Positions 2,871 through 33,441 of a stretch of 37,338 nucleotides of DNA are shown piece after piece. The translations under genes were made by a program, and so were the position numbers. Below the pieces are notes generated by a model. It was not told the origin of the DNA. It saw only the letters and a program-made list of their open reading frames with translations, and did no database searches. Positions within the stretch are counted from its first letter, which is position 1; each line of letters starts with the position of its first letter. This DNA is from an uncultured Oscillospiraceae bacterium (GTDB lineage Bacteria; Bacillota; Clostridia; Oscillospirales; Acutalibacteraceae), in assembly GCA_949283785.1 (NCBI GenBank), contig CASDTR010000002.1, forward strand, positions 1 to 37,338. The letters run 5' to 3'.

Positions 2871-2877
2871 TATTTCC

Positions 2878-4152
2878 TCACTTTCCGCCGCTTTCAAGCT
2901 GCTCTAAAAATGCGGTGACTCTCGTGACCATCTGGCCGTCGCTTATATTTCTCCTGTCGCAGCCGTCTCCGTCAAGAATCAGGGTGGGAAAGCCGCTCTG
3001 TTCGAAATCTCTCTTTGAGAGAACGCAGGCTCCCATTGTCTGCTTGCAGCCCCAGTGACAAAAATATATTATTCCGTCGGCCTGCATTTTTTCGGCCAAG
3101 TCTTTGCAGAGCCCGGAGCGCCGCTCCCATCCTCCGTTAAATGAGCAGGACACGGTCCTGTTTGCCATAAAGGCGAAGGGATCTTCCGTATTCCCCGTCT
3201 CCAGGGAGTCGAAGGTCATATCGCAGGAAATTATTTCGCATCTCTCATTAAAATTGAATATTTCACGCAAGGAATCCTGCCAGTATGGCAATGAGTGGAC
3301 CCACAAAAGTCTTTTTCCCCTGAAACCTTCTGGCTTTTTAGCCGTATCTTCACACAGGCGGCGAGTATACTCCTCGCTCTCCTGCGTTCCGAGAAGCACA
3401 TGCATGGCAAAAACCGACAGCATCTCCGAGGTCATCTCGTCGTTTATATAGCGGGACGCCCGCAAGTCCAGATATTTTTTATAATTATCAATTGTCCTTC
3501 GGCTTCTCTCAGCGGAAGCCCTGAGGTTTTCATCGGGATTTTTTTCTTCCGAGAAAACCTTTATTTTCTCCCAGATATCCCTGAGCTGATTTTCAACATA
3601 TTCCGCGCTCTTTTCATCGCTGCTCATGGGCACGTCAATTACATAGTGGGGGATTTTAAAGTATTCTGCCGCTCGTCGGAAGGAAAGCTGATTTGCGTCG
3701 CAGGCAAGGGTGGTGTTGAGGATAAACAGAGGCTTCGGCATCACTCCTGATTCTACCAGCCCTATAAGGATTTTATGGTAGGAGCAAAGGCTTTCGGGCA
3801 CTCCGTTTTTTTCGGCCAGCTCTATAAAATACCTCTCGCTTGCGGAGGCGGCAAGATAGCAGGAAAGGCCCTCTGGGAACATGGGCTCGATACCTGCTGC
3901 GTGAAGCATTTCGCAGGGGGTAAAGATGCTTACGATCGCGGCTCTTTCCGGCCTGCGCAGAGGTTTTGTTATCGATTTTGCCGACACCCACATCATGTAC
4001 TGACGTGATGGCATCAGATCCTTTGAGGGAAAATACTTGGCCTGGAGTCCCGAAAGAGAATACACTGAGGCAAGTATTTTCCTTGCGGCCTTCGGATCTT
4101 CTCCCGCTTTTTTGTATATATACTCGCCGAATTTTTCAATTACCTTATTCAT
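2878..4152 (-). CDS. 2-hydroxyacyl-CoA dehydratase subunit D family protein (HgdA/B-, YjiM- or DCCP-like)
   Basis: A 424-residue iron-sulfur protein of the 2-hydroxyacyl-CoA dehydratase / benzoyl-CoA reductase family. Visible motifs: TPCEMLHAAGIEP (C80), LSCYLA (C98), LACDANQLS (C151), the late Cys cluster FCHWGCKQTMGAC (C365, C369, C376), and the family ending DGDGCDRRNISDGQMVTR (C398). These Cys are the likely ligands of the [4Fe-4S] centre or centres. It is the first gene of a two-gene operon with the D-domain/activase fusion, so the pair could supply all three parts of an HgdABC-type system. An alternative is a double-cubane-cluster protein with its reductase, which has a similar one-subunit-plus-activase layout. 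The start is ATG 4152, because a TTGACT-N17-TAAAAT promoter lies inside the longer frame (ATG 4218), which also lacks a ribosome site. The substrate cannot be told from sequence. Confidence 0.85.
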   Translation of the reverse strand: MNKVIEKFGEYIYKKAGEDPKAARKILASVYSLSGLQAKYFPSKDLMPSRQYMMWVSAKSITKPLRRPERAAIVSIFTPCEMLHAAGIEPMFPEGLSCYLAASASERYFIELAEKNGVPESLCSYHKILIGLVESGVMPKPLFILNTTLACDANQLSFRRAAEYFKIPHYVIDVPMSSDEKSAEYVENQLRDIWEKIKVFSEEKNPDENLRASAERSRRTIDNYKKYLDLRASRYINDEMTSEMLSVFAMHVLLGTQESEEYTRRLCEDTAKKPEGFRGKRLLWVHSLPYWQDSLREIFNFNERCEIISCDMTFDSLETGNTEDPFAFMANRTVSCSFNGGWERRSGLCKDLAEKMQADGIIYFCHWGCKQTMGACVLSKRDFEQSGFPTLILDGDGCDRRNISDGQMVTRVTAFLEQLESGGK

Positions 4153-4183
4153 GCTGCACCGTACCGATTTATTTTTTATGTCT

Positions 4184-4212
4184 ATTTTAAATTCAGTCTC
4201 CCATATAGTCAA
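4184..4212 (-). promoter_or_regulatory. Promoter of the dehydratase/activase operon
   Basis: On the minus strand TTGACT (4212-4207) and TAAAAT (4189-4184) are separated by exactly 17 nt. The predicted transcription start is near 4177, 25 nt before the ATG at 4152. This decides the start codon of the first gene. Confidence 0.7.
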
Positions 4213-4267
4213 GTCCATTGAGTTGCTAAAATAAAATCAGCTTTCCCGCAAAATTCCCAAAATGATG

Positions 4268-6801: not shown

Positions 6802-6978
6802 TTTTATCCTCCGTTTCTTTTCGCTGCTGTTAAGAATAAAGTCCAAAATAATCAAAATCAGCTCCGCCGCGCCGAAACCCAACAGATAAATAAGATTTTT
6901 CATTTGAAAATCCATGTCGGAGATATATCATAAATAAATCCCGAGCTGCTCCGGTGAGCGACAGTTCATGATTTTGTA

Positions 6979-7008
6979 ATTATACCATTATATAAGTGAT
7001 ATTGTAAA
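6979..7008 (-). promoter_or_regulatory. Likely promoter of the GH3 gene
   Basis: On the minus strand TTTACA (7008-7003) and TATAAT (6984-6979) are separated by 18 nt. This gives a leader of about 170 nt before ATG 6801. The rest of the divergent gap (6802-7274) is very AT-rich and holds no gene. Confidence 0.55.
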
Positions 7009-7200
7009 TAGTTTAATCTTTAAGAAAAGGTTTTTTATAAATTTTTAACAACAGCTGAAATACAGACACATAATTTAATTAATTTTGCAGCCTGAGCCGC
7101 CTTTTATATCGGATTTTGAAAGATTAATTATTGATTTATTTAAATTTAAAAAAATTTATTCGAAATATGATTTAAAATAAGCAATAAAAAACTAAATCTG

Positions 7201-7229
7201 TTGACATTTAGTTAAAAATTTTGTAAAAT
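7201..7229 (+). promoter_or_regulatory. Promoter of the NSS transporter gene
   Basis: A consensus TTGACA (7201-7206) and TAAAAT (7224-7229) are separated by 17 nt. Transcription would start near 7236, giving a leader of about 39 nt that contains GAGGAG at 7262. Confidence 0.8.
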
Positions 7230-7274
7230 CTCATTAATTGTTTATTTAAAATTATTCAACTGAGGAGTGTAGAA

Positions 7275-8651
7275 ATGGAAAAAACTGAAAAAAAGTCCAG
7301 AGGCCAGTGGGGTTCCGGCATAGGCTTCGTCCTTGCAGCGGCAGGTTCCGCCGTAGGTCTCGGTAACATTTGGCGCTTCCCCTACCTTGTTGCCAAATAC
7401 GGCGGAGGAATTTTCCTTCTCGTGTACATTTTTCTCGTAGTCACTTTCGGCGTATTCCTTATGATTACCGAAATAGCTATAGGACGTAAAACGGGTCTGA
7501 GCCCTATAGGCGCTTATGCGAAGCTTGGCAAAAAGTTTAAATTCGTCGGCATCATCGCGTCCTTCGTGGCATTTTTCATTCTTCCCTATTACAGCGTTAT
7601 CGGCGGCTGGGTAATGAAATACTTCGCCTCCTACATCGGCAATCAGCACACTGCGCTGGCGGACTCAAACTTCTTCAGCGGATTCATCAGCAGCGGCGCA
7701 GAGCCTCTTGTATGGCAGATAATCTTTATTCTTCTTACAACGGCGGTAGTTATTTTCGGCGTTGAAAAGGGCATCGAAAAGGCGAGCAAAATCCTCATGC
7801 CCCTGCTTTTCCTTATGCTCATCGGTCTTGCAATTTATTCCGCCACACGCGAAGGTGCGCTTCAAGGTATCATTTTCTACTTTAAACCCGATTTCAGCAA
7901 GTTCTCAATGAACCTTGTCCTTGCCGCCATGGGTCAGATGTTCTACTCAATGTCTCTGGCCATGGGCATCATGATAACCTTCGGCTCATACGTCAAAAAG
8001 GACGAAAACATCGAGAAATCATCTCTCAACATTGCCCTTTTTGATACCATAGTAGCTATCATCGCCGGCTTTATCATCGTTCCGTCCTTCTATATATTCA
8101 GCGGCGGACATGCAGAAGACATGAATGCAGGCCCCGGACTCATGTTCGGTGTTCTTCCCCAGATTTTTGAAAACTTCGGAAACTCAACCATAACAACTGT
8201 TTTCGGCGCCGTATTCTTCCTTCTTGTTTTCTTCGCAGCGATCACCTCTGCAATTTCCCTTATGGAGGCGGTTGTTTCCACAATTTCCGACCAGCTTAAA
8301 ATCAACCGCAAGCTTTCAACCTTTATCGCCAGCGCCTGCGCCATAATCATCAGCTTCTTCCCGTCACTGGGATACAGCGTGCTGAAAAATGTTAATATCA
8401 TCGGCCTTGATATCCTTGATTTCATGGACTTCATCACAAACTCGGTGCTCATGCCCGTGGGAGCTCTTCTCACCTGTATCATCGTGGGATATTTCCTTAC
8501 CCCCAAGACCATTATCGACGAGGTGCGCATATCCTCGCCCTTCAAGCCCGCAAAGCTTTACACCCTTGTTATCAGATATTTCGGACCCGCAATCGTTATA
8601 GCGGTTCTGGTAAGCTCAGTGCTCAACACCTTCGAGGTCATTACACTTTAA
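7275..8651 (+). CDS. Neurotransmitter:sodium symporter (SNF/NSS family), probable Na+/amino-acid transporter
   Basis: A 458-residue membrane protein with about 11-12 hydrophobic spans, the length of prokaryotic LeuT/MhsT/TnaT-type symporters. The start carries the family signature: QWGSGIGFVLAAAGSAVGLG followed by NIWRFPYLVAKYGGG (residues 11-45), which is TM1 with its unwound substrate and Na+ site, then the TM2 motif ITEIAIGRKTG. Other NSS features are LAMGIMITFGSY in TM6-7 and FFAAITSAISLMEAVVS in TM8, which contributes the second Na+ site. It imports a small amino acid with Na+ in the plasma membrane; the substrate is not readable from sequence. The start is ATG 7275 with GAGGAG 7 nt upstream. 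The gene is monocistronic, between its own consensus promoter and a terminator. Confidence 0.93.
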   Translation: MEKTEKKSRGQWGSGIGFVLAAAGSAVGLGNIWRFPYLVAKYGGGIFLLVYIFLVVTFGVFLMITEIAIGRKTGLSPIGAYAKLGKKFKFVGIIASFVAFFILPYYSVIGGWVMKYFASYIGNQHTALADSNFFSGFISSGAEPLVWQIIFILLTTAVVIFGVEKGIEKASKILMPLLFLMLIGLAIYSATREGALQGIIFYFKPDFSKFSMNLVLAAMGQMFYSMSLAMGIMITFGSYVKKDENIEKSSLNIALFDTIVAIIAGFIIVPSFYIFSGGHAEDMNAGPGLMFGVLPQIFENFGNSTITTVFGAVFFLLVFFAAITSAISLMEAVVSTISDQLKINRKLSTFIASACAIIISFFPSLGYSVLKNVNIIGLDILDFMDFITNSVLMPVGALLTCIIVGYFLTPKTIIDEVRISSPFKPAKLYTLVIRYFGPAIVIAVLVSSVLNTFEVITL

Positions 8652-12822: not shown

Positions 12823-13554
12823 TTACAGTAATCCATACTTTATTTTAATTCGATACAGCTTTTCCGTCAAGGGCTTAAGAGCAATAATAAGAAAAAAAAC
12901 TGTCGCTGCGGCGTGTACAAGGTCGAAAGGAAGCCCCGAAGCATAGACGGAAATCACTGTTTGAAGGTTTATTGTCATTACGGAAGAAAGAAGTGTCGAA
13001 AGGTTCATGAGTCCTCCGTAAATGATAAGGGTGGAAACTCCCCCGAAGATTATCACGAAGGGATGCTCTCTTTTCGTAAGGGGTCTCCTGCCGAAGATAA
13101 GCCCCGCCAGAAATCCGATTATTCCGCAGCAAAACATCTGCCACGGCGTCCAGGGACCCTGACCGAAAAAGAAATTCGAGACGAAGGCGGTCATGGCTCC
13201 CGTTAAGAATCCGCTTTCCGCCCCGAAACAGATACCCGTAATAATCACAACGGATACCATGGGCTTAAATTGTGGGACCATAAAAAAAGCTCCCCTGCCC
13301 GCCACGCCTACGGTGCACATGGCAGCCAGCACCGCAAGCTCCCTTGCCGACGGTCTGCGGCTTTCAAAGGACAGAAAAAAGGGGATCATGGTAAGGAGAA
13401 TTATCAGAAGGCTGATGAGGTAATATTTTCTGTCGTCCAAAAACACAATGCCGAAGGCTATTACGGCAGGGACAAGAATGAGTATTATCAGGAAGGAAAG
13501 AATTGTGCGTTTATTTAAAAGAGACTTTAAGCTTTTGCCTTCGAAGCGAGACAT
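12823..13554 (-). CDS. ECF transporter S component, predicted corrinoid (cobalamin) specificity
   Basis: A 243-residue integral membrane protein with about six or seven spans. It is the substrate-binding S subunit of an energy-coupling-factor importer. The conserved middle reads AGRGAFFMVPQFKP, ITGICFGAESGFLTGA and SNFFFGQGPWTPWQM, the pattern of the CbrT-like group of S components. It is the last gene of the B12-riboswitch operon and overlaps the ATPase gene by 28 nt. The start is ATG 13554 (AGGAGG 10 nt upstream); the longer frame upstream is Arg-rich and lies inside the ATPase gene. Cobalamin or a precursor such as cobinamide as substrate is inferred from the riboswitch and neighbours, not from a motif known to bind it. 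Confidence 0.85.
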   Translation of the reverse strand: MSRFEGKSLKSLLNKRTILSFLIILILVPAVIAFGIVFLDDRKYYLISLLIILLTMIPFFLSFESRRPSARELAVLAAMCTVGVAGRGAFFMVPQFKPMVSVVIITGICFGAESGFLTGAMTAFVSNFFFGQGPWTPWQMFCCGIIGFLAGLIFGRRPLTKREHPFVIIFGGVSTLIIYGGLMNLSTLLSSVMTINLQTVISVYASGLPFDLVHAAATVFFLIIALKPLTEKLYRIKIKYGLL

Positions 13555-15194
13555 AGGGAAATTACCTCCTTGTTTGTGACAGCTTGGGGAAAAAATAAAC
13601 GTGCCATTCTGTTTGCTGCGGTTGTGTAGAAGCTGTTGCCCGCAAAAAACTCCTTTGCGGGAGCCGTTGAAACCGCCTCTCCGCAGAAAAGCAGGGTGCA
13701 GTAATCTGCGTACTGAGCGCAGAACTCTATATCGTGGGATACGGCTATTACGGTAACGCCTTTTTCGCAAAGCTCCCTTATAATTTCCGCAAGCTCTCTT
13801 TTAAACCAACAGTCAAGGCCCTTTGTAGGCTCGTCCAGCAAAAGAATATCGGGCTCGGTTAAAAGCACCTTTGCAAGGGCCGCCTTTTGCTGCTCTCCTC
13901 CGCTCAAATCGTAGGGATGCCGTGAAAGGAGATTTTGAAGGTGTACCTGCTCCGCCGCTCTGCGGGCGGTTTTCTCCCTTTCCTCGCCGCTCATTTTTGC
14001 GCCTATTCCCTCCTCTATATCCTCAAGAAGGGTTTTCTTTACGAAAAGGGTCTGCGGATTCTGGGGAAGCAGAGCCACTTTTAGCTTTTCACCTTTTTCT
14101 CCCACCGTGATTTTTCCCCTGTACGCCTTCAGGGAGCCAGAAAGCAGGGAGAGAAGAGTGGTTTTGCCTGCTCCGTTGCCGCCCAAAACGGCGTGGAAGG
14201 TTCCTTTTTTAACGGAGAAATTAAGGTCCCTTATTACATCTGAGCCGTTTTTTTCATATCTGAACCACAGATTCCTCGCTTTTACAGCGTCGGGGACCTT
14301 CTTTTCCGAAAACCTCGTCGTTTTTCCGCTTTCGGCTGGTACTTTCCCCTCCATATACTCTGAAATAAAAAGCCTGCCGTCACGCACCGTTAACGGAAGT
14401 CTCTTTTCTCCACGCTCTCTTTCGCCGCTTTCCGAAATCTCCGCCGCTATCTTGACAGAAGCAGGCATGGCCTCCGCCATAGGGTTCCCCATTTTCTTTA
14501 ACAAGGAATAGGCTTCCCACGGAGCGCATGAAATGCTTCTGCCCTCCTCCATTACGATTACCTTATCGGCAAGGGGAACCACTTCTTCAAGACGGTGCTC
14601 TGAAATAATAACGGTAACTCCCAGAGAGAAATTTATTTTTTTTACCGCCGCCAAAAACTCAGCGGCGGCTATCGGGTCAAGCTGCGAGGTGGGCTCGTCG
14701 AGAATTATCGCCTTGGGCTGCATGGCCATTACTGAGGCCAGATTGAGAAGCTGCTTCTGCCCGCCCGAAAGCTCCTCAACCCCCTTGAAAAACCACTGCT
14801 GTATGCCGAAAAAGCTTGCCGTCTCCGCAACCTTCAACCTTATGCGGCAAGGCTCCTCCCTAAGCGATTCGAGACCGAAGGAGAGCTCGTGCCAAACCTT
14901 ATCGGTAATTATCTGATTTTCGGGATTCTGCATTACATAGCCGATTTCCGATACCGCCTCCCGCTGCGGCAAAGAATTTATGTCCCTGCCCTCAAAGAGG
15001 ATTTCTCCCTCCCGTTTTCCGTGAGGGGCGAGGGCGGGCTTCAAATGGCGAAGCAGGGTGGTTTTCCCACAGCCTGATTTTCCGCATATAACGGCGAACT
15101 CGCCTTTTTCAATTTCTAAACTTATATTATCCAATGCCTTTCCCTCACCGAGAGGATAGGAAAAGCTTAGATTTTTGATTTGGAACGATACCAT
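13527..15194 (-). CDS. ECF transporter ATPase, EcfA-EcfA' fused in one chain
   Basis: A 555-residue protein with two complete ABC ATPase domains. Domain 1: Walker A GKSGCGKTT (38-46), signature LSGGQ (142), Walker B IILDEP (163), switch His H200. Domain 2: Walker A GGNGAGKTT (338-346), signature LSGGE (430), Walker B LLLDEP (451), switch His H487. A linker of about 65 residues (240-305) joins them. In ECF importers EcfA and EcfA' pair on EcfT to power uptake; here one polypeptide supplies both. GGAGG lies 8 nt before ATG 15194. The gene overlaps EcfT by 28 nt and the S component by 28 nt, so translation is probably coupled and the module is dedicated (group I). It faces the cytoplasm. Confidence 0.93.
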   Translation of the reverse strand: MVSFQIKNLSFSYPLGEGKALDNISLEIEKGEFAVICGKSGCGKTTLLRHLKPALAPHGKREGEILFEGRDINSLPQREAVSEIGYVMQNPENQIITDKVWHELSFGLESLREEPCRIRLKVAETASFFGIQQWFFKGVEELSGGQKQLLNLASVMAMQPKAIILDEPTSQLDPIAAAEFLAAVKKINFSLGVTVIISEHRLEEVVPLADKVIVMEEGRSISCAPWEAYSLLKKMGNPMAEAMPASVKIAAEISESGERERGEKRLPLTVRDGRLFISEYMEGKVPAESGKTTRFSEKKVPDAVKARNLWFRYEKNGSDVIRDLNFSVKKGTFHAVLGGNGAGKTTLLSLLSGSLKAYRGKITVGEKGEKLKVALLPQNPQTLFVKKTLLEDIEEGIGAKMSGEEREKTARRAAEQVHLQNLLSRHPYDLSGGEQQKAALAKVLLTEPDILLLDEPTKGLDCWFKRELAEIIRELCEKGVTVIAVSHDIEFCAQYADYCTLLFCGEAVSTAPAKEFFAGNSFYTTAANRMARLFFPQAVTNKEVISLCLASKAKA

Positions 15195-16051
15195 TTAAAA
15201 TCCTCCGTAAGACTGAATATGAGGGGAAATGCCATTAAGAGAAAATATGAAATATATATGGTGAGTCCAAAAAAAGAAAATTCAGGAAAAACTATCGCAG
15301 GATAGTACTTTGCATCCCCCGCTCCCACCGCAATGCCCGCCGATATAATAAAAATCAGGAGAAGCAGAACAGCCAGGGATAAGCCGTCCCGCCTGTCAAA
15401 GCGAAAGCCGGAGAAGGAAGTGCGTCCTCTGAGTCCCCAGCCTCTGCTCTTCATGGAGTCGGCGGTTTCCACAGCGTTTTCTAAAGCCCATGTTATGAGA
15501 ATTGAGAGGATTTTAACGCCGTTTCCCGCTTTTGTGAAAAATCCGCCCTCATCCAAACCTCTGCCTATGGATTTCTGTGCGGAAACTGTTTTTTTAAGCT
15601 GTCTGTTAAACCTCGGCACAAATCTTAAAGTCATGGAAAACAAAAGGGCGATTGAAGGGGAGAGCTTTCCGAAAAGACACATGAGCTTATCCGAGGTCAT
15701 GACCTCGTTGAGGCAGGAAAACCACATGAGCACCCCCAAAAGCATAAGGGCGGCGGCAAGGGAATAAATAAGTGATTCGAGGGTAATCGGATTGTCATTT
15801 ACATACAGGAGAATAGTGAACCCCTCATGGTTAAAGGCGGCGTTTATCACTGCGGCAAAAATCACAAGGAGCAGGGACATTCCGAGAGTTTTAAAGGCTT
15901 TCTTCCCTTTAAGATAAACCGAATATCCGAAAGCGCAGATAAAGGAAATTACAAGAAAAACGGGATGCATCAGAAACATTGAAAAGCCTGCGGCGAAAAG
16001 GAAAAATACAAGCAGCACAAAGGGGTGAAGGGAGGCAAAGGGAGTATTCAT
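15167..16051 (-). CDS. ecfT: ECF transporter transmembrane subunit EcfT (CbiQ-like)
   Basis: A 294-residue membrane protein of the CbiQ/EcfT family with about six hydrophobic spans. The two coupling-helix motifs that contact the ATPases are visible as SAQKSIGRG (157-165) and KSRGWGLRGR (201-210), variants of the usual Ala-Arg-Gly motifs. It links the S component to the fused ATPase. Its ATG overlaps the stop of the DUF4430 lipoprotein gene by 4 nt (ATGA), which ties the surface protein and transporter together in translation. No soluble extra domain is present. Confidence 0.9.
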   Translation of the reverse strand: MNTPFASLHPFVLLVFFLFAAGFSMFLMHPVFLVISFICAFGYSVYLKGKKAFKTLGMSLLLVIFAAVINAAFNHEGFTILLYVNDNPITLESLIYSLAAALMLLGVLMWFSCLNEVMTSDKLMCLFGKLSPSIALLFSMTLRFVPRFNRQLKKTVSAQKSIGRGLDEGGFFTKAGNGVKILSILITWALENAVETADSMKSRGWGLRGRTSFSGFRFDRRDGLSLAVLLLLIFIISAGIAVGAGDAKYYPAIVFPEFSFFGLTIYISYFLLMAFPLIFSLTEDFKWYRSKSKI

Positions 16052-16773
16052 CGGCCGTTTTCCTCAAACCACCGGTCGCCCACGTCGCGGCCTAAATCGC
16101 AGGTATAACGCCACTGTATTTTGTCGCCGTCACTGAGCTTATACCTGCTGCACCCGTAGTTGGGAAACCAGCCGTTTACGCTGTAAGTCCAGCCCGAGAG
16201 CTCGCCGCAGTCGAACTCATAAATATTTCCTATGCCCTCAATGTAATTGCTGTTATACATGGGAGTCTTTTCAAACTCCATATGTATCCTGTTTTTCTTC
16301 ATCTCACGGTTCAGAACGTCGAAAACCGTTTCGCCTTCGTAAAAAATAACTTTTCGCTCTTTATATATGATTCCGTCCTCGGGAAGCACGGAAAGCTTGT
16401 CCTTATTAAATTTATCCATATTGTCGAGAATGGTCAGGCAGTCAACGGAAAGAGTGCAGTAATTTACCTTTGTTTTGTCGGCGGGCTCCAAGTCATCCGC
16501 AGGGGCAGGTCTCTTTTCCGAAGCCTGAGTTTCCTCCTGAGAGGATGGATACTGTGAAACTGAGCTGTCCTTTTGCTCTGATGCGTTTTCAGAGACGGAG
16601 GAAATATTTTTCTCGCTCTCCGAGTCTTCGGTCATATTGCTTTCAAATTCAGATTGATAAAATTCACAATCGCTTTCCGAAGGGATATCATCGGGAAATT
16701 CGATTTTGCATCCGGAAAAAAATACAGTGATCAAAATAAAAAAAAATAAAATAAGTGAGGCGGTTTTTTTCAT
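16048..16773 (-). CDS. DUF4430 (transcobalamin C-terminal-like) lipoprotein, predicted corrinoid binder
   Basis: A 241-residue lipoprotein: signal peptide with lipobox FSGC (C22), a Ser/Glu-rich spacer of about 75 residues (30-105), then one DUF4430 domain (about 105-230). Domain signatures are CTLSVDCLTILDN, LPEDGIIY, EGETVFDVLN, TPMYNSNYIEGIGNIYEFDCG, SGWTYSVNGWFPNYGCSRY and GDKIQWRYTCDLG. DUF4430 is the fold of the C-terminal domain of transcobalamin and intrinsic factor, where it caps cobalamin, so B12 or corrinoid binding at the outer face of the membrane is a reasonable inference in this operon. The start is ATG 16773, 6 nt after AAAGG; the longer frame starts with TTG and adds only six residues. 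It overlaps ecfT by 4 nt. Confidence 0.88.
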   Translation of the reverse strand: MKKTASLILFFFILITVFFSGCKIEFPDDIPSESDCEFYQSEFESNMTEDSESEKNISSVSENASEQKDSSVSQYPSSQEETQASEKRPAPADDLEPADKTKVNYCTLSVDCLTILDNMDKFNKDKLSVLPEDGIIYKERKVIFYEGETVFDVLNREMKKNRIHMEFEKTPMYNSNYIEGIGNIYEFDCGELSGWTYSVNGWFPNYGCSRYKLSDGDKIQWRYTCDLGRDVGDRWFEENGR

Positions 16774-16817
16774 TTCAGCCTTTGCGGACAAAAGTCCCCG
16801 TCCTTTCTTTTTAATGG

Positions 16818-16844
16818 GGGCGGGCAGCTTAAAGCTGTCCGCCC
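16818..16844 (-). repeat. Intercistronic stem-loop in the cobalamin operon
   Basis: A 13-position inverted repeat with 12 pairs (GGGCGGACAGCTT / AAGCTGCCCGCCC on the minus strand) and a 1-nt centre sits in the 91-nt gap between the propeller gene and the DUF4430 gene. No U-run follows, so it is more likely an RNA processing or stability element, or a partial stop that sets the ratio of the first protein to the transporter, than a full terminator. Confidence 0.5.
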
Positions 16845-16864
16845 TCAGCTAAAACGGCGAAAAC

Positions 16865-19504
16865 TCAGCGCCTTTTACGTCTGCCCAAAAGCAGCACGGC
16901 AAGGAGAGAAGCTGAACCAAGGGGAATAAAGGAGATCATGCCGTCGCCGAGGCTTTCGGGTTGTGATGCGCTTTGGGGAACCGCAAAATAAGTTCCGCCG
17001 TTTTGAGCCGTAAATTTAAGGGATGCGTTTTCATAAACTGCATCTTCCTCATATACGGCTTTACCGTTTTCAAAGCGGTAAAGCTTATACTCTCCGTCGG
17101 GGAGAGAGGTTTTGAGAGTTATCTGCGCCTTGGCGGGAAGAGCGCCCTCATGGTCAAGGGAAAATACAAAGGCGTCGGGATAAAGGGCTTTGATTTCGTC
17201 TTCGTAATCGGAACTGAAAGTGACCGAAATGTCAAAGTCCGTTGCGGGGTCAGTAATATCGGTACCTTTAAAGGAAAATACGGCGTTTTCATACTCTGCG
17301 CTGTATGCGTCGGGCGAGCCTGCGAGATTCATAAGCATCTCGGAAATTATAACGCCTTCCTTAAGTCCCTCTATCACTCTGCGGGCAAAAACTACGTCCT
17401 CATAGCGTGTGACGTATTCCCTGTCCGTTTCCGAAAGAAGGGCGTATTCATTTTCGATTTCCGAAACAGCCTTTTCCGTTTCAAGAGTGATGTTAAGTGG
17501 GTCTATTTCATTGAAAATCCTCTCGTCAAGGGCGTCCACCCTGCTTTGAAGCTCGTTTATTTTGTCGGAAGCCGCAAGGAGCTTTTCCCCGTCGCACATT
17601 TTCTTTACTTCGTCCTTCTGCATTTCGTAAAGAGAAAGCACTTCGAGAATTTTATCCCTGTCCTTAAGGGTGACCTTGTCTGCGCTCGGAAGAGCCTCAA
17701 TAAGCTCATTGAGTTTTGAAGCGGCGTCCTGATTTTTAAGGTTTTCTATAACCGCAGCGCATTTTAAAAGCTTCTCGGGATTTTCCACAAGGGCTTTGCT
17801 CTCCTGTGAAAGAGCGTTATATTTTGCGTACCAGCCGTTTACGGTGTCCGCGTCGTCAATTGTGAGAGCGTCGGGATTTACGTTTTTAATGTATTCGTTA
17901 AGGTCTTTAACGACTTGTTCCTCGTTTTTGAGGTTTTCAATTGTTTCAAGCATCTTTACAAGGCTTTCGTAATTCGTGACCTTGGCCTTTTCGCTTTCGC
18001 TCATTAAATCATAACGAAGCTTGAGTCTGTTGAGGCGGTATTCGTCCCTTTCGGTGAATCCCGTAAAATCAAAAAGGGATATTGCGTTTACCATGTCCTC
18101 GGCGGTGTATTCTCCGTCGGCCGAATCAACATGGCTGAAGCAATACATCTTTCCGCCGTCGTTATAGAAATAAATTGAGCCGTCGCCGCCTATTGCCGCG
18201 CTCTGGGAGCAGTACTGAAGCTGTGAGGGAACGGCGAGAATATCGTATTCCGGCTCCGTCTGACCCTGACTGTCCGATATGACATAGACGCAGGAGGACG
18301 AGGGAGTGTATCCGCCCGAAGCGTATCCGCCGTAATCCACCACATACATCTTGACTTCATAATTGTTTTCCTCAGTGGCATAGGCTGTTGTAATTATGGG
18401 TGAGGACTGGGTCTTTATCTCGTCTATCTGATATATTATCTCAAGGGTTTCGCTGTCCATCACGGTAAAGCCGTTGCCCGATGAGATCCCGCCGCCTCCT
18501 ATATAGAGCCTTCCGCCGAAAACTACGGGACTTGAGGTGATGTCGTTTCCGATATTTGTCTTCATTACGGAGGAAGCGTCGAAGGTGTTGTCACCGGAAA
18601 GCTTCACGGAATATATATTTCCGCTTTTAAGAGCGACAAAAACTCTGTTTGTCGCAGCGTCATAGTGAACGCTGCTCCTTATTCCCGATGCTGCGTCGGG
18701 CTCTAAAACAAGAGTATCGTATACCTTATCCTCGGTGAGGCTGTGGATGACAAGCTCCGTCGCCTCGCCGCCGAAAATTATGGCGTCACCCACTATGGCT
18801 CCAGCGCTCCAGTAGTAGCCGCTCTTCATGTTTTCCGGCTTATAGGTCCAGACGGGGGCCTTTACCTCGTCGATTTTTGCGGGATTTTCGTCGGTCGTAT
18901 CAAAGCATACATAAGCTCCTTCGCCAGCACTGCCGTCTGAAACGCCTACATAGATGTGACCTTCATATCCTATGACAGCCGAAAGAGGCTGTATCCTGCT
19001 GTTTGCCCCTCCTATGGGCTCCGAAATCCACAGCTGCTCCATGGTCTCCTCATCGTAGGCGATTATTACGGCTCCCGTGCCGTCGGCCGCAGCTCTCGGG
19101 ACATAGATCACCCCGTCAAAATATGCGATGGTCGAAAAGAACTGGCTCTTTCCCGCACAGGGTACGGATTTCAGGATTTCCCCCGTATTTGCGTCAACTC
19201 GGTAGAGCTTGCTCTGTCCAGCCAAGAGGCAGTAAAGGTAATCTCCTACTATAACGGGGGTTCCGGGAACGTCGCTCCAGCCCGTGCCGAAGGAGGTAGC
19301 CCACTTTTCCTCAGTCTCGCCTGCGTAAATCGGGGTTTTGCTGTCAACTATTCCCTGGGAAAGGGCTTCGCCTCTGAACTGGGAATAGCTCAGGTATTCC
19401 TTTTCGGGAGAGACCTCTCTCGCTGCCGAAATACATATCGGCAGGGAAAGCGCTACGGCAAAAACCAGCAAAAGGCTTACAAGGGATTTTGTGATTTTCT
19501 TCAT
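16865..19504 (-). CDS. Secreted membrane-anchored PQQ-like beta-propeller protein of the cobalamin operon
   Basis: An 879-residue exported protein, first gene after the cobalamin riboswitch. Residues 1-27 are a signal peptide (MKKITKSLVSLLL...). About 60-455 form a PQQ-like beta-propeller with repeated blade patterns such as GDYLYCL, GVIYVPR, GHIYVG, GNIYSVKL, GRLYIGGG and GSIYFYN. About 465-735 are mainly helical with repeated segments (xTEVxxLxxxYxxLSExxK-like: LSESEKAKV, LSQESKALV, LSETDREYV), a spacer type common in Firmicutes surface proteins. About 750-850 are a beta domain, and the end is one membrane span plus RRKRR. No LPXTG is present. In context it is a candidate corrinoid-capture protein, comparable in idea to the BtuG propeller of Bacteroidota; that function is inference. 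The start is ATG 19504 with AAAGGA 8 nt upstream; the longer frame runs back into the riboswitch. Confidence 0.85.
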   Translation of the reverse strand: MKKITKSLVSLLLVFAVALSLPICISAAREVSPEKEYLSYSQFRGEALSQGIVDSKTPIYAGETEEKWATSFGTGWSDVPGTPVIVGDYLYCLLAGQSKLYRVDANTGEILKSVPCAGKSQFFSTIAYFDGVIYVPRAAADGTGAVIIAYDEETMEQLWISEPIGGANSRIQPLSAVIGYEGHIYVGVSDGSAGEGAYVCFDTTDENPAKIDEVKAPVWTYKPENMKSGYYWSAGAIVGDAIIFGGEATELVIHSLTEDKVYDTLVLEPDAASGIRSSVHYDAATNRVFVALKSGNIYSVKLSGDNTFDASSVMKTNIGNDITSSPVVFGGRLYIGGGGISSGNGFTVMDSETLEIIYQIDEIKTQSSPIITTAYATEENNYEVKMYVVDYGGYASGGYTPSSSCVYVISDSQGQTEPEYDILAVPSQLQYCSQSAAIGGDGSIYFYNDGGKMYCFSHVDSADGEYTAEDMVNAISLFDFTGFTERDEYRLNRLKLRYDLMSESEKAKVTNYESLVKMLETIENLKNEEQVVKDLNEYIKNVNPDALTIDDADTVNGWYAKYNALSQESKALVENPEKLLKCAAVIENLKNQDAASKLNELIEALPSADKVTLKDRDKILEVLSLYEMQKDEVKKMCDGEKLLAASDKINELQSRVDALDERIFNEIDPLNITLETEKAVSEIENEYALLSETDREYVTRYEDVVFARRVIEGLKEGVIISEMLMNLAGSPDAYSAEYENAVFSFKGTDITDPATDFDISVTFSSDYEDEIKALYPDAFVFSLDHEGALPAKAQITLKTSLPDGEYKLYRFENGKAVYEEDAVYENASLKFTAQNGGTYFAVPQSASQPESLGDGMISFIPLGSASLLAVLLLGRRKRR

Positions 19505-19560
19505 TTTCTTCTTTCCTTTCTCTTTTTTCGGCACCTTCACACCATACCAAACGGAAAAAC

Positions 19561-19587
19561 AAAAAAGCCGAGCTGAATGCTCGGCCT
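19561..19587 (-). terminator. Leader terminator between the cobalamin riboswitch and the first gene
   Basis: On the minus strand AGGCCGAGC and GCTCGGCTT form a 9-bp stem (one G-U) with loop ATTCA, followed by TTTTGTTTTT. It lies about 95 nt after the B12 box and 57 nt before the start codon, the place expected for an expression platform that ends transcription when ligand is bound. Confidence 0.8.
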
Positions 19588-19680
19588 TAAGGCATGAGAA
19601 AGAAAACGGAAATGAAAACACAAAATCCGCTTTTTTCTTTAATCGCCTCGATCTCCCACCGAAATCAGCAATCAACGCAC

Positions 19681-19845
19681 TACGGCAGGTCTCCTGGCTC
19701 AAAATCATCCTCAGGCTAAACCTTCCCGGTTTCCCAGTGGCAGAGCTTGCGCTCTAATAGCCTTCGTCATTTTTACAGTAGCGGGGGCTGCTGCGGAGTC
19801 TGACCGCATTCCCTTTTAATTTACCCTTCGGTAAAACCGTAATCC
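19681..19845 (-). promoter_or_regulatory. Cobalamin riboswitch aptamer
   Basis: On the minus strand the conserved cobalamin-aptamer blocks occur in order: AAAGGGAATGCGG, GCAGCCCCCGCTACTGTAA, ATGACGAAGG, GCCACTGGGAAACCGGGAAG, a GGATGA block and the B12 box GAGCCAGGAGACCTGCC (19700-19684). The closing helix is TACGG (19841-19837) with CCGTA (19685-19681). In this class binding of adenosyl- or methyl-/aquo-cobalamin lowers expression of uptake or synthesis genes. Here it controls the propeller-DUF4430-ECF operon by the leader terminator at 19561-19587. Confidence 0.96.
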
Positions 19846-19882
19846 GTCGGGGCAAAAGCCCCTGTGTGAAGTTGTCAATGCT

Positions 19883-19911
19883 ACTATACATTACCTTTGC
19901 CCTCATGTCAA
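19883..19911 (-). promoter_or_regulatory. Promoter of the cobalamin-uptake operon
   Basis: On the minus strand TTGACA (19911-19906) and TATAGT (19888-19883) are separated by 17 nt. Transcription would begin near 19876, giving a leader of about 370 nt that contains the full aptamer and the terminator. A second TTGACA-like site at 19878-19873 has no good -10. Confidence 0.8.
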
Positions 19912-19995
19912 ACAAAAGGTTAAAATATTTGTAATAAAAACGTAATAAATAGCAATTCTGAATTGTAACTATTATGCCTCAAAATAATACTTGCA

Positions 19996-20017
19996 GGAGA
20001 GAAGGCGCCTTTTCTCC
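19996..20017. repeat. Inverted repeat in the divergent gap before the two-component genes
   Basis: GGAGAGAAG and CTTTTCTCC (9 bp with one wobble) flank GCGC. T-rich runs follow on both strands only after about 9-11 nt, so it is a weak terminator candidate. It may equally be an operator for the regulator genes. A TATAAT at 20049-20054 is the likely -10 for the downstream regulator gene. Confidence 0.35.
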
Positions 20018-20092
20018 CGCGGTACTTCTTTTTATCGCCGTGTCGGTGTATAATTGACGTAAAAGTTTTATGGGCAAAGAGAGGAAAAGGGT

Positions 20093-20782
20093 ATGTACAA
20101 CATTCTTGTTTGCGACGATGATAAGGCAATACTTGATTCGATCGAGATTTATCTGAAAGCGGAGGGATATAACGTTGTCCGAGCCGAAAACGGAGAAGCG
20201 GCCGTTGAAGCGGTAAAGGGCAGGGATATCCACTGTGCGGTCATGGATATTATGATGCCGGGCCTCGACGGACTCGGCGCAACCCTCAAGCTTCGAGAGA
20301 ATCACAATTTCCCCATTATTTTACTTTCGGCAAAAAGCGAGGATTCCGATAAAATCACGGGGCTTACCTTCGGAGCAGACGACTATGTGACAAAACCCTT
20401 CAATCCCCTTGAGCTTGTGGCGAGAGTAAAGTCACAGATAAGACGATTTGTCAACCTCGGCAGCATCGAGAAAAAGGAGAACGCAATCGTAAACGGCGGC
20501 CTGGTGCTGGACACCGCCGCCAGAGAGCTTTCCGTTGACGGGGAGCCCGTCCACCTTACCGCAAGGGAATACGGAATAATGGAGCTGCTTATGAGAAATC
20601 TCGGCAGAGTCCTTTCGACCCAGCAGATATATGAAGCGGTGTGGAACGAGCCCAGCTTCTCAACCGAAAAGACAGTAACCGTTCACATAAGGCGAATAAG
20701 GGAAAAGATCGAAATCAATCCCAAGGAGCCTAAGTATTTAAAGGTGGTGTGGGGAATTGGCTACAAAATTGAGAAAATTTAG
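20093..20782 (+). CDS. OmpR/PhoB-family response regulator
   Basis: A 229-residue two-domain regulator. Receiver domain (1-120): acidic pair DDD at 8-10, phospho-acceptor D52 in VMDIMMPGLDG, S79, and K101 in YVTKPFNP. The C-terminal winged helix (about 130-229) has LTAREYGIMELLMRNLGRVLS, EKTVTVHIRRIREKIE and the wing ending VWGIGYKIE. It is phosphorylated by the kinase encoded directly downstream, whose frame overlaps it by 26 nt. GAGG lies 8 nt before ATG 20093. It ends with a genuine TAG stop at the expected family length. The target genes are unknown. Confidence 0.95.
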   Translation: MYNILVCDDDKAILDSIEIYLKAEGYNVVRAENGEAAVEAVKGRDIHCAVMDIMMPGLDGLGATLKLRENHNFPIILLSAKSEDSDKITGLTFGADDYVTKPFNPLELVARVKSQIRRFVNLGSIEKKENAIVNGGLVLDTAARELSVDGEPVHLTAREYGIMELLMRNLGRVLSTQQIYEAVWNEPSFSTEKTVTVHIRRIREKIEINPKEPKYLKVVWGIGYKIEKI

Positions 20783-24437: not shown

Positions 24438-27011
24438 TTACTCTTCCGATTCGGAAGCTTCATTTTCTAAAGCTCCCTCGCTTTCTGCCTTCACGTCGGT
24501 TGATGCGCTCTCCTGAGCGATTTCTTCTCCTGAGCGCTCGGTTCTGTCATCAGTCTCCTCGGGGACGGCGGTTTCCTCGCTTTCCTCCTCGTGGTCGGCT
24601 CCCGCAACGGTTACAACCTTTTCGCCCTCGCTTACGCGCATGAGCCTTACTCCCTTCGCAGGACGGTTGAATTCGCTTATGTCTTCGGCGTAAATCCTGA
24701 TGATTATACCGTCTGAGGAGATGAGGATTACATCCTCGCCGTCGCTTACGGTGCGTATTGCCGCCACGTCTCCGTATTCTGCGGTGCGGTAGTTTTTAAG
24801 TCCCTTGCCGCCTCTCGACTGAATTCGGTAATCCTTTTCGCTGCTTCTTCTGCCGTAGCCTGTTTCGCTTACGGTGAGGACGCTGTCGCCCTCGTGAAGC
24901 ACCGCCATTCCGATAACCTCGTCGCCTTCGTCAAGCTCTATGGATTTGACGCCTCTGGCGGTTCTGCCGAGAGGTCTTACGTCGCTTTCACTGAATCGAA
25001 TTGACATACCCTTTTTGGTCGCCACAAGCAAATCATCGTTTCCGCTTGTAAGGTGTACCCATGCAAGCTCGTCGTCATCGTCAAGGGTTACGGCTATAAC
25101 GCCGCTCTTTCTGACATTTGCGTAAACCTCAAGGGGTGTGCGCTTTATGATGCCTTTTCTCGTAACCATGCAAAGGTACGCGCCCTCTTCAAACTGTGGC
25201 ACCCTTATCATAGCCGATACCCTCTCGCCCTGTTCAACGGGGATAAGGTTGACTACGTTCATGCCCTTGCTGGTTCTGCCGCCTTCGGGAATTTCATATC
25301 CCTTTAAGCGGTATGCTCTGCCCTTTGAAGTAAAGAACATCACATACTCATGGGTAGAGCAGGTGAACATGGTCTCTGCAACGTCCTCTTCGCGGCGTGT
25401 CATACCCATGACGCCTCTTCCGCCTCTGCGCTGGAGCTTGTAGGAGTCAACGGGCAGACGCTTTGTGTATCCCATTGTGGTAAGGGTGAATACACAGGTT
25501 TCCTCGGGGATAAGGTCCTCAATATCGACCTCGCCCGTTACGTTTGCAATCTCGGTCCTTCTCTCGTCTCCGAATTTATCAGCGATCTCCCTTGCCTCGG
25601 TTTTGATGATTTCCATTATCTTGCTTTCGTCGCCGAGAATCTCAAGAAGCTCCTGAATCTTGACTTTGAGTGAAGCAAGCTCTTCTTCAATCTTCTGCCT
25701 TTCGAGACCCGTAAGCTGTCCGATACGCATCTGGACTATAGCCTGAGCCTGGATGTCATCAAGGGCAAAGCGTTCCATAAGGGCGGCTTTCGCTGAGGGT
25801 ATATCCTTTGAAGCCCTGATAATTGCGATGACTTCGTCTATAAAGTCGATGGCAACCATGAGTCCCTCTAAGATATGGGCTCTGTCTTGAGCTTTTTTAA
25901 GGTCAAAGTTTGTTCTGCGGACTATTACCTCGCGCTGATACTCTATATAATTCTGAAGGATTTCCTTTAAGTTGAGAACTTTCGGCTCACCGTTTACAAG
26001 GGCTATCATAATCGCGCCGAAAGTAACCTGCATCTGGGTGTAAGAATAGAGCTGATTTAACACAACCTGGGGATTTGCGTCCCTTTTAAGGTCTATGGCG
26101 ACATGGATGCCCTCTCTGGAGGAGTAGTCGCTGACACCCGAAATACCCTCTATTCTCTTTTCCTTAACAAGGTCGGCAATGGATTCTATGAGTCTTGCCT
26201 TATTTACCTGATATGGAAGCTCGGAAATATTGATTGTGAATCTTCCGTTTTTCTTCTCTTCGATTTCGGCTCTGGCCCTTACGAAAATCCTGCCGCGGCC
26301 AGTGGCATAGGCGGCCCTTATACCCGCCTTGCCCATAATTATGCCCGCCGTGGGAAAATCCGGTCCCTTGATGTGCTCCATAAGCTCGGGGAGCTCTGCG
26401 TCGGGGTTATCGATAAGGCAGCACATGCCGTCCACAACCTCTCTGAGATTGTGGGGAGGGATATTTGTGGCCATACCTACGGCGATACCCGTTGAACCGT
26501 TTACGAGAAGGTTCGGGAAACGTGAAGGAAGCACTACGGGCTCCTTGTGGTTGTCGTCGTAGTTGGGGATAAAGTCAACAGTATTCTTATCTATGTTTCT
26601 GAGCATTTCCATGGAGATTTTGCTCATCTTGGCCTCAGTGTAACGGTATGCGGCAGGGGGGTCTCCGTCGATTGAACCGAAGTTTCCGTGACCGTCAACG
26701 AGGGTATATCTCATTGAAAAGCTCTGAGCAAGCCTTACGAGGGCGTCGTAAACTGAAGCGTCGCCGTGGGGGTGATATTTACCCAGAACGTCGCCGACCG
26801 TGGCGGCGCACTTTTTATAGGGTTTTTCGGGATAAAGTCCCGCCTCGTACATGGTGTAGAGTATTCTCCTGTGAACGGGCTTCAAACCGTCCCTTACATC
26901 GGGAAGAGCTCTTGAAACGATGACCGACATGGAGTAGTCAAGGAATGACTTTCTCATTTCCTTGTTGATGTCAACATTTACTATGCTCTGCCTTTCAAAA
27001 TCTAAGCTCAT
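24438..27011 (-). CDS. gyrA: DNA gyrase subunit A
   Basis: An 857-residue type IIA topoisomerase A subunit. The N-terminal breakage-reunion domain has [17 protein letters not shown], the [21 protein letters not shown] and the catalytic Tyr124 in AYRYTEA. The C-terminal beta-pinwheel has the gyrase box [10 protein letters not shown] and repeated GRxxR-type blade motifs ([32 protein letters not shown]). The last 60 residues are a Glu/Ser-rich tail. With GyrB it introduces negative supercoils in an ATP-dependent way. The residue matching E. coli Ser83 is Ala85 here, the arrangement seen in some lineages with lower quinolone sensitivity. The ribosome site is weak (AAGGG, 9-10 nt from ATG). It is the last gene of the replication cluster. 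Confidence 0.98.
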
Positions 27012-27051
27012 CTTTATCAGCCCTTATCTTTAAAATATTTGTTCCTTGCTT

Positions 27052-27630
27052 TTATATAAATTCGGAAAAACTTGAATTGTGGAATACACTTTCCGCTTTT
27101 TCATAGAGTATGGAGGAAATTCTGTCGTTTGTATCCCCGCTCAAGCTCTGCTTCGGAATGCTTATACATTCGTGGCTTTCCCTGAGAAGCACCGAAAAGG
27201 TCTTGCTGCTCTCCCTGATAAATTTTATCTTTTCATAGGGGATAACGTCCTCGGCGGAGTCTATGGAATATTTCATGTATTCCTCATAAAACTCAATGTA
27301 GCAGGGTTTTTTATCAAGCTCCCGCAAAGTAAAAAGCCTCATCCTGTTCCTCTTTATTATTTTAAAGGGAATATGGAAAATAACCGCAATTAGCAGAAGA
27401 AAAATCAAAAAGTCAAATACAAAGGAGGCAAAGGTAAACCTGCTGTCCCCTTCGGCCAGGAAAAGAGCCTTGAGAGTTGTGTTCGCAAAGGTGAATATGG
27501 CTATGACCACTCCCCCCGCGATTTTATTCTCACGCCTTAAAAGACCGATTTTTTTTTCTTTCCACATTTCGCTTTCCGTAAAATTTTCCTTTACCATGCG
27601 GTAATCTATTCTCAAAAGACAATCTTCCAT
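27052..27630 (-). CDS. YcxB-like membrane protein of unknown function
   Basis: A 192-residue protein with two hydrophobic spans in the middle (starting GGVVIAIFTFA and FLIFLLLIAVIF), then a basic stretch and a C-terminal beta-rich cytoplasmic part (YIEFYEEYMKYSIDSAEDVIPYEKIKFIRES ... CISIPKQSL), which matches the YcxB-like pattern of small Firmicutes membrane proteins. The function is unknown. The start is ATG 27630, because AAGGCGG lies 5 nt upstream; the longer frame starts with TTG and no ribosome site. It lies 49 nt after gyrB and 40 nt before gyrA, so it is cotranscribed with the gyrase genes, an uncommon insertion. Confidence 0.75.
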   Translation of the reverse strand: MEDCLLRIDYRMVKENFTESEMWKEKKIGLLRRENKIAGGVVIAIFTFANTTLKALFLAEGDSRFTFASFVFDFLIFLLLIAVIFHIPFKIIKRNRMRLFTLRELDKKPCYIEFYEEYMKYSIDSAEDVIPYEKIKFIRESSKTFSVLLRESHECISIPKQSLSGDTNDRISSILYEKAESVFHNSSFSEFI

Positions 27631-27679
27631 ATTAACCGCCTTTTCCGCTTTTTTCTTTGACAAAGGTCAGGGGTAAATC

Positions 27680-29686
<2,007 letters not shown>

Positions 29687-29802
29687 TTAACAAAAGCCTT
29701 CCTCAAAGGGCTGATATATAAAAATCTGAAATTACAGTTTTTATTAAGATAATCCTTTGCCGAGGCTCAAGGCCTCACTGCGTTTTTGCTTTTATGAAAG
29801 CG

Positions 29803-30096
29803 TTATTTTATATTCTTCTCAATATTGGATAAATTTTCCACAAAGCCTGTCCTTTTTAAAAGGGTTTGACAGGAAATCTGCGATATATATACCACCCTTC
29901 CGCTCTTTCTCGTCTCATCCTCGCAGACAATAAAGGATTTAGGAAGCTCATAGGAAACGTTTATAACGTCCCCCGCCTTTTCAGCCGCTGCAAGATAATC
30001 CCTTGAAGCCTTTGCGACAGTAGCGGTGTCAAGGTCGAAGATACCTATTATTTTGTCGAGAGTGACTACCGTGTCCTGTCCCAAGTGCAGATACAA
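29803..30096 (-). CDS. remB: RemB-like DUF370 regulator (YaaB)
   Basis: A 97-residue protein starting MYLHLGQDTVVTLDKIIGIFDLDTAT, the hallmark of the RemB/YaaB (DUF370) family found between recF and gyrB in Bacillota. In Bacillus the relative acts with RemA in extracellular-matrix gene control. The C-terminal part (SGRVVYISQISCQTLLKR) is also typical. The start ATG 30096 is preceded by GGGAGG at about 12 nt. It follows recF by 66 nt in the same transcript direction. Confidence 0.85.
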   Translation of the reverse strand: MYLHLGQDTVVTLDKIIGIFDLDTATVAKASRDYLAAAEKAGDVINVSYELPKSFIVCEDETRKSGRVVYISQISCQTLLKRTGFVENLSNIEKNIK

Positions 30097-30162
30097 GTCT
30101 TTTTCCTCCCTGATGAAAATCTGTTCAAATCACTCTTTCACTTAAGTAATATCTGAAAGAAA

Positions 30163-31338: not shown

Positions 31339-31579
31339 TCGCTTTTACCTCATAAAGCCTTCCGCCAAATTCCGCGACGTCTCCGTCTCTGAGTTTTTTG
31401 CCTCTGGCAGTACATATTTCGCCGTTTACCTTTACCTCTTCATTTTGTATGGCGATTTTGGCATGTCCGCCGCTTTGAACTGCGTCGGCAAGCTTTAAAA
31501 ATGCATCCAGCTTTATAAACGGAGAATTTATCTCTATTATTTTTTTAGGTTTTTCTTTGATCTTAACTTTTATCTTCAT
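31319..31579 (-). CDS. yaaA: S4-domain RNA-binding protein YaaA
   Basis: An 86-residue protein with one S4 fold (FIKLDAFLKLADAVQSGGHAKIAIQNEEVKVNGE followed by RGKKLRDGD). The small S4 protein between dnaN and recF is standard in Bacillota. It probably binds structured RNA, perhaps on the ribosome. It overlaps recF by 20 nt, and GGAGG lies a few nt upstream of ATG 31579. Confidence 0.9.
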   Translation of the reverse strand: MKIKVKIKEKPKKIIEINSPFIKLDAFLKLADAVQSGGHAKIAIQNEEVKVNGEICTARGKKLRDGDVAEFGGRLYEVKANESADA

Positions 31580-31630
31580 ATGAAAAATCCTCCTTTATAA
31601 AGATCGGCATTTGAAAGCGCCGCTCTTTAT

Positions 31631-33421: not shown

Positions 33422-33441
33422 CCCGTTTACCTCCTGAAAGA

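Follow-up and report, generated by a model that had tools for sequence, protein, structure and literature searches.

A riboswitch-led operon for probable corrinoid scavenging in an uncultured Oscillospiraceae bacterium, encoding a transcobalamin-type lipoprotein, a beta-propeller protein and a CbrT-like ECF importer

Introduction

Surface proteins that bind vitamin B12 (cobalamin) have been described in Bacteroides, where BtuG, a propeller, and BtuH are encoded in loci with B12 riboswitches (PMC6143338, PMC8941943). According to the BtuH paper less is known for Firmicutes, and a BtuH homologue lies near a predicted energy-coupling factor (ECF)-like transporter in Eubacterium siraeum (PMC8941943); among six papers found to mention DUF4430, the one dealing with B12 binders (PMC4350170) is on those of vertebrates. 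In 2007, Burroughs et al. described secreted bacterial beta-grasp domains of the transcobalamin type, which stand on their own or are joined to toroid or propeller domains and are found in operons with CbiO/CbiQ-like genes, predicted that these proteins scavenge B12, and suggested a tethering role for their extra domains, the propeller included (PMC1796856). As to transport, PDB entry 6FNP is ECF-CbrT from Lactobacillus delbrueckii, which binds and transports cobalamin and cobinamide, hemin being no competitor of its cobalamin uptake (PMC5997447). Here we describe an operon at positions 12823-19911 of a 37,338-nt stretch, hereafter the window, of contig CASDTR010000002.1 (assembly GCA_949283785.1) from an uncultured Oscillospiraceae bacterium of the Acutalibacteraceae, a clostridium of gut type. 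It places a DUF4430 lipoprotein, a propeller protein and a complete ECF importer behind a cobalamin riboswitch, and as a whole it is probably a corrinoid-scavenging operon. The two surface proteins likely capture B12 for the importer, as is also suggested by similar operons that many further bacteria carry.

Results

The minus strand from 19911 to 12823, on which all features of this paragraph lie, reads as a single transcription unit. Near its head stands a full-length cobalamin riboswitch aptamer (RF00174, 19667-19856, model positions 1-189), which scores 126.1 bits (E 1.7e-31) against a gathering score of 31.5 and is the sole match at that score in the window and, at E <=0.001, the only one in the source genome. 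It is followed by the genes for a secreted eight-bladed beta-propeller protein of the BamB/YxaL type (16865-19504, 879 aa), a DUF4430 lipoprotein (16048-16773, 241 aa), the CbiQ-like transmembrane coupling protein EcfT (15167-16051), a fused EcfA-EcfA' ATPase with two ABC domains (13527-15194) and a CbrT-like S component, the substrate-binding membrane protein (12823-13554). The propeller and DUF4430 genes are separated by 91 bases, and the last four genes overlap successively by 4, 28 and 28 bases. Gene order, Pfam and RF00174 together thus confirm the operon as the initial annotation had drawn it, with two surface proteins and an ECF importer under the control of a cobalamin riboswitch.

The fused ATPase matches TIGR04520 at 331.6 bits (cut-off 315) and contains two ABC_tran stretches; EcfT matches PF02361 (EcfT/CbiQ) just under the cut-off (24.2 bits against 25, E 2.9e-5) and is conserved in the sister operons. 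For the S component, Pfam gave PF07155 (ECF-ribofla_trS, 37.6 bits; cut-off 26.7) and PF12822 (34.3 bits; cut-off 30.7), and NCBIfam gave riboflavin and folate types, both far under their cut-offs. Compared on its own with the PDB sequences, this protein found a single match at E <=1, chain A of 6FNP (E 4.2e-10), and a profile of 49 relatives ranked the same entry first (2.5e-28), followed by 4hzu (0.007) and RibU (0.067). Judged by sequence, the window's S component is therefore CbrT-like, a homologue of CbrT above the other S components in the PDB, which were the ones compared. The dedicated importer recognised in the initial annotation from EcfT, EcfA-EcfA' and an S component in one operon is strengthened by this match, and the operon as a corrinoid importer is well supported and very probable.

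The DUF4430 protein (PF14478, 73.5 bits; cut-off 23.8) carries a signal peptide with a lipobox Cys at residue 22, both read by eye, and a Ser/Glu-rich linker; the DUF4430 domain takes up about residues 100-241. Alone it found nothing useful among PDB sequences, and transcobalamin was reached by the family profile only: built from 54 relatives, the profile matched haptocorrin (4kki, 8.3e-5), transcobalamin-2 (5no0, 0.0014) and intrinsic factor (3kq4, 0.0047). These matches place the protein in the domain family whose human members, in the B12 carriers, close over the vitamin, so that the proposed membership of the transcobalamin/intrinsic-factor beta-domain family holds, and we consider it a putative corrinoid binder, and a fairly probable one. 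The same profile matches a clostridial structural entry, 3u7z, at 7e-13; this solved bacterial DUF4430-type protein (RUMGNA_00854) was deposited as a putative metal-binding protein.

We surveyed 120 genomes of the GTDB family, evenly sampled from a larger group. In 70 of them RF00174 was matched, 81 times in all (five under the cut-off), and DUF4430 gave 127 domains in 89 (four under the cut-off); 52 of the 81 riboswitches are followed within 8 kb by a DUF4430 domain on their strand, and 54 of the 127 domains are so placed. For CbrT-like S genes there were 98 matches spread over 89 genomes, one gene being at times split into several matches. Sixty-eight of these lie within 6 kb of a DUF4430 domain on the same strand, against 0.39 expected from their density if genomes of 2.0 Mb are assumed, and 42 follow a riboswitch at a distance of no more than 9 kb. 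Both S component and DUF4430 are found in 82 genomes (Fisher p 4e-13, kinship ignored). Among 69 DUF4430-S pairs, 35 are spaced by 21-372 bases and 28 by 2.5-3.5 kb, the room taken by EcfT and EcfA-EcfA'.

Grouping of the DUF4430 genes, with riboswitch matches under the cut-off and matches to a DNA profile built from the family's 81 riboswitches included, gave 105 loci, 61 of which have a riboswitch: 10 of 11 with a propeller, 17 of 29 with a toroid, 21 of 35 with only S or EcfT, and 13 of 30 with none of these. The link between riboswitch and DUF4430 is strong, yet not universal. A more sensitive search of the 30 DUF4430 genomes without a first-pass riboswitch yielded eight matches under the cut-off in seven genomes, five lying 256-933 bases before DUF4430, one before the propeller gene of genome G014 and two elsewhere, and the DNA profile matched 15 of the 63 DUF4430-only loci at E <0.05 and 14 at E <0.01. 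Degenerate matches of 19-23 bits stand directly before DUF4430 at G084:C7:404584, G108:C63:17529, G053:C62:6677, G074:C72:4388 and G056:C6:17720; the Rfam threshold may miss part of a riboswitch group of this kind.

In 27 riboswitch-less family loci DUF4430 is accompanied by a gene for a propeller, a toroid, S or EcfT, and 14 of these loci, several with little upstream DNA, were scanned with all of Rfam. Thirteen gave no riboswitch of any kind. The other, L127, has an FMN riboswitch (4042-4159, plus strand) located 2.7 kb upstream of DUF4430 and on its strand; it stands ahead of a weakly S-like gene, a 566-aa gene, DUF4430, EcfT, the ATPase and a CbrT-like S gene, all on one strand, and represents either two adjoining vitamin operons or one mixed operon. 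A different context of DUF4430 also recurs, with the order uvrA, a DUF5685 gene, two small genes, DUF4430, an HI0933-like flavoprotein and ispH(LytB)-S1; it was seen by Pfam in L142 and judged by gene sizes in L159, L167, L177 and L180.

The propeller family is nearly confined to corrinoid loci. When the 120 genomes were searched with the propeller alignment, 14 genomes each showed one strong match (E <=2.2e-97); 12 of these matches had built the model, and the next four were weak (1.6e-12 and up). A riboswitch lies upstream on the same strand in 13 of the 14, nine times over the cut-off and four times weaker (G003, G014, G080 and G087); the fourteenth, in G063, reaches the contig end. DUF4430 is near on the same strand in 12, divergent in G038 and absent from the contig in G014, where the riboswitch match is just 18.1 bits (E 0.016) and 2.7 kb upstream. 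All 14 propellers thus stand downstream of a riboswitch or next to DUF4430, that of G014 on no more than weak evidence.

A wider set was assembled from named genomes with a peptide pattern blind to gene context, which gave 143 relatives. The best 80 of the 143 were kept and 79 were counted after removal of L233, which has no propeller frame; the set overlaps the family set in some contigs, and L197 and L246 have an identical layout. Riboswitches were called here with the DNA profile, which gave 0 matches when the 80 loci were reversed or shuffled; 64 of its 69 true matches lie upstream of the propeller. A riboswitch stands on the same strand within 4 kb upstream in 57 of the 79 loci, or 57 of the 72 with at least 1.5 kb of upstream DNA, so that homologous operons are mostly under cobalamin riboswitches rather than under others or none. 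DUF4430 occurs within 8 kb on either strand in 67 of the 79, and one or the other in 74. Within 9 kb, a CbrT-like S gene is found in 39 and EcfT in 38. An Rfam scan of nine named loci confirmed the riboswitch in L186, L223, L254, L255 and L260, in L254 after the propeller gene; L186, from Caproiciproducens galactitolivorans YR-4, carries the operon in full. Five of the 79 loci have no riboswitch, DUF4430, S or EcfT, and four of these five are close to a contig end; in L227 (Blautia glucerasea) none of the four elements lies within flanks of 4.4 and 4.6 kb. Propeller and DUF4430 are fused in 16 of the 79, one of them the compact 635-aa protein of L251. In L248, a single 2851-aa frame contains propeller, DUF4430 and toroid, and the locus has a riboswitch-like element by the DNA profile.

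Three layouts recur in the family. The first consists of riboswitch, DUF4430 (~150 aa) and S component (~170 aa); the second, with parts varying by locus, of riboswitch, a partner, DUF4430, EcfT, EcfA-EcfA' and S; the third of long DUF4430 proteins with several domains. The partner of the second layout is the window's propeller in some loci; in others it is a protein that Pfam assigns, in part by matches under the cut-off, to the prenyltransferase/squalene-cyclase alpha/alpha toroids. The toroid gene directly precedes DUF4430 in 12 loci, seven of which are behind a riboswitch (L040, L043, L044, L086, L094, L113 and L143; the others are L130, L131, L163, L171 and L176). Toroid and DUF4430 are fused in L058, L126, L136, L153 and L162, in the domain order of transcobalamin; a riboswitch was matched in three of these five loci, each time weakly or by the DNA profile. 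In a model of the L058 fusion (mean pLDDT 68), the toroid is well predicted and the linker disordered, and every one of the top 15 Foldseek matches is a transcobalamin, haptocorrin or intrinsic factor.

The propeller protein itself (PQQ_2, 32.6 bits; cut-off 27.6) begins with a signal peptide, followed by the propeller at about residues 39-460; beyond another region it ends in a hydrophobic segment and a basic tail, signal peptide and tail being read by eye. Its sequence alone found nothing useful in the PDB. In two fold searches the best matches of its model were BamB/YxaL-type propellers, and the model aligned over nearly its full length with these and with designed eight-bladed propellers; BtuG2 (3DSM) was missing among the 50 matches listed by each search. 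The link to BtuG drawn in the initial annotation is supported no further than by both being propellers, though a distant relationship may exist. Eight columns are invariant in 89 sequences of the family, and Q172, Y231, W232, R276 and C432 of the window's protein are among its conserved positions. A direct part of the propeller in corrinoid binding is conceivable, if somewhat less likely than not.

In the leader, also on the minus strand, a promoter-like site of the sigma-70 kind (TTGACA, 17 bases, TATAGT; 11 of 12 consensus matches) lies at 19883-19911. A terminator-like hairpin, found as an inverted repeat with a T tract, lies at 19564-19588, between aptamer and propeller gene; it is present in the predicted fold of the leader RNA (z -2.7) and is the putative expression platform. 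Because the consensus scan of 19450-20100 gave two promoter-like and two terminator-like sites, and shuffles about one of each, these sites are plausible rather than proven. The longest listed propeller frame opens at 19708, within the riboswitch, and the start ahead of the signal peptide is 19504.

Elsewhere on the minus strand, dnaA, dnaN, recF, gyrB and gyrA stand consecutively at 24438-35159 (read by eye), so that the operon is probably near the replication origin. At 1212-4218 (minus strand) lies a 2-hydroxyacyl-CoA dehydratase-like pair, an HGD-D protein and a BadF-type ATPase fused to an HGD-D part.

The source genome, which is 97% complete, so that absences are no proof, encodes a MetH-like protein with B12-binding domains. 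At locus L183 (G000:C68, 8215-11887, minus strand) it also encodes a URO-D-type methyltransferase, a B12-binding corrinoid protein and a RACo-type activator, with an AraC-type regulator opposite (by eye). A search of this genome for FecCD permeases (PF01032, BtuC-type) gave none over the cut-off (one at 18.6 bits against 26.5), and one for cobQ gave no match. A second pair of DUF4430 (131 aa) and CbrT-like S component (167 aa; nearest to 6FNP, 7e-10) lies in the same genome (L119, G000:C35:47352-61546, at 6812-7704, plus strand). An Rfam scan of this locus gave no cobalamin riboswitch, and a hexapeptide acetyltransferase gene follows the pair on the same strand.

Discussion

We propose that, at low intracellular cobalamin, the riboswitch would let transcription pass the terminator, as expected from its class, and that EcfT, EcfA-EcfA' and the CbrT-like S component would form a dedicated importer for cobalamin and probably cobinamide, as their strong homology suggests. 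The DUF4430 lipoprotein, tethered outside the membrane, would bind the corrinoid through its transcobalamin-type beta-grasp domain and hand it to the S component. The surface-held propeller would be its partner, most likely as part of the capture site or as a dock for the DUF4430-corrinoid complex; this part of the scheme is the weaker one, and is suggested because in sister operons the propeller's slot is filled by the toroid, the other B12-contacting half of transcobalamin. In the most specific form of this scheme, lipoprotein and eight-bladed propeller would make up a two-part, clam-like receptor, with the propeller in the toroid's role, that passes the vitamin to the ECF S component; we regard this form as conceivable, and rather doubtful.

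Several observations weigh against this scheme. ECF-CbrT of L. delbrueckii is active in proteoliposomes without a soluble binder (PMC5997447). No cobalamin riboswitch was detected in 44 of the 105 DUF4430 loci (12 of which have less than 2 kb of upstream DNA), and 17 of the 44 also lack every one of the propeller, toroid, S and EcfT genes; an exact B12-box pattern had no match in the 63 DUF4430-only loci. No riboswitch was called in 15 of the 72 propeller loci whose upstream DNA is long enough, and the Rfam scan of nine named loci gave no RF00174 match over the cut-off in L207, L227, L232 and L261. The DUF4430 gene of L142 sits between uvrA and ispH, a housekeeping neighbourhood (Pfam), so that DUF4430 is not always a B12 protein. 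Taken alone, the toroid leads to squalene cyclases, which are favoured by VIA-align and by the sequence profile. Two-gene DUF4430-S modules and toroid operons occur without the propeller, which is therefore not essential. Propeller and toroid share none of the 12 propeller loci of the family, but 8 of the 80 wider loci have both, so the propeller may supplement the toroid rather than replace it; a simple swap in one slot, of propeller or toroid but never both, was rejected on this ground.

The strongest alternative, which could well be true though we would not wager on it, is that importer and DUF4430 handle corrinoids and the propeller is a mere scaffold or wall anchor, which for example binds peptidoglycan or keeps DUF4430 at the surface, with no corrinoid contact. 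Such a part agrees with the tethering role that Burroughs et al. suggested for extra domains, propellers among them (PMC1796856), with the general use of propellers as binding scaffolds, BamB and YxaL being the nearest folds, and with the many DUF4430 operons that have no propeller. A generic anchor, however, would not need eight invariant columns nor be nearly confined to corrinoid loci, and the partner that occupies the same slot, the toroid, contacts B12 in transcobalamin.

A second alternative, which we consider unlikely, concerns the ligand: propeller and DUF4430 might scavenge incomplete corrinoids, or corrinoids bound to proteins of the host or to surface proteins of other bacteria, instead of being a simple trap for free B12. 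BtuG of Bacteroides is able to take B12 from intrinsic factor, a precedent for this idea. Acceptance of cobinamide by CbrT also speaks for it (PMC5997447), but the sequences bear on it in no direct way. Import of cobalt, or of another tetrapyrrole such as haem, is very improbable, since the S component is CbrT-like and without a cobQ match imported cobalt could hardly become B12; the likeness of EcfT and ATPase to CbiQ/CbiO and the B12 riboswitches ahead of some cobalt transporters (PMC2667541), cobalt uptake being often B12-regulated, are outweighed by these points, by the DUF4430 match to B12 carriers and by the failure of hemin to compete with cobalamin for ECF-CbrT (PMC5997447).

If surface capture by lipoprotein and propeller is correct, the operon's ECF importer would receive its substrate from a receptor at the cell surface, as opposed to the classical arrangement, where the vitamin is caught by the S component unaided. 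As a rule, ECF importers are not known to use an extracellular binding protein, and this rule would then have to be qualified. Human B12 carriers and bacterial surface receptors would also share both a ligand-closing domain and a modular, interchangeable partner. The operon type, with transcobalamin-type lipoprotein, toroid or propeller partner and CbrT-like ECF importer, is widespread and offers a testable case.

The initial annotation had implied that B12 scavenging built from these two folds is new. Its outline, propeller fusion included, is already found in Burroughs et al. (PMC1796856), the only place where our literature search, thin on subscription papers and without preprints, found the same idea; the riboswitch, the kinship to CbrT, the near-confinement of one propeller family to such loci and the alternation of toroid and propeller are additions. 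The window's operon resembles the transcobalamin-like clade of the SLBB superfamily described there in domain type and in the CbiO/CbiQ-like operon setting. As to differences, riboswitches have 0 occurrences in the main text of that work, which is older than the description of CbrT and regards tethering as the likely role of the extra domains (PMC1796856).

Compared with transcobalamin, haptocorrin and intrinsic factor, whose beta domain DUF4430 represents, the likeness extends to sister operons that encode toroid and DUF4430, sometimes fused and in the same order. The window's locus itself has no toroid label, has a beta-propeller in its place, and encodes a bacterial lipoprotein. With ECF-CbrT (6FNP) the S component is homologous across the membrane part. 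In L. delbrueckii, CbrT uses an ECF module common to other S components (group II), whereas the window's operon itself encodes EcfT and a fused EcfA-EcfA', plus two surface proteins. Rv3035-FecB (PDB 9p3f) is mycobacterial; LpqZ and FecB are reported, in a 2025 paper naming Rv3035, to be tied to cell envelope biogenesis. BtuG and BtuH are functional parallels, as surface B12 binders encoded in riboswitch loci. BtuG2, however, is seven-bladed and works with the TonB-dependent BtuB (PMC6143338, PMC8941943); no TonB-dependent transporter was noticed by eye among the window's listed frames, for which no dedicated search was made, and the window's propeller is BamB/YxaL-like and stands beside an ECF importer.

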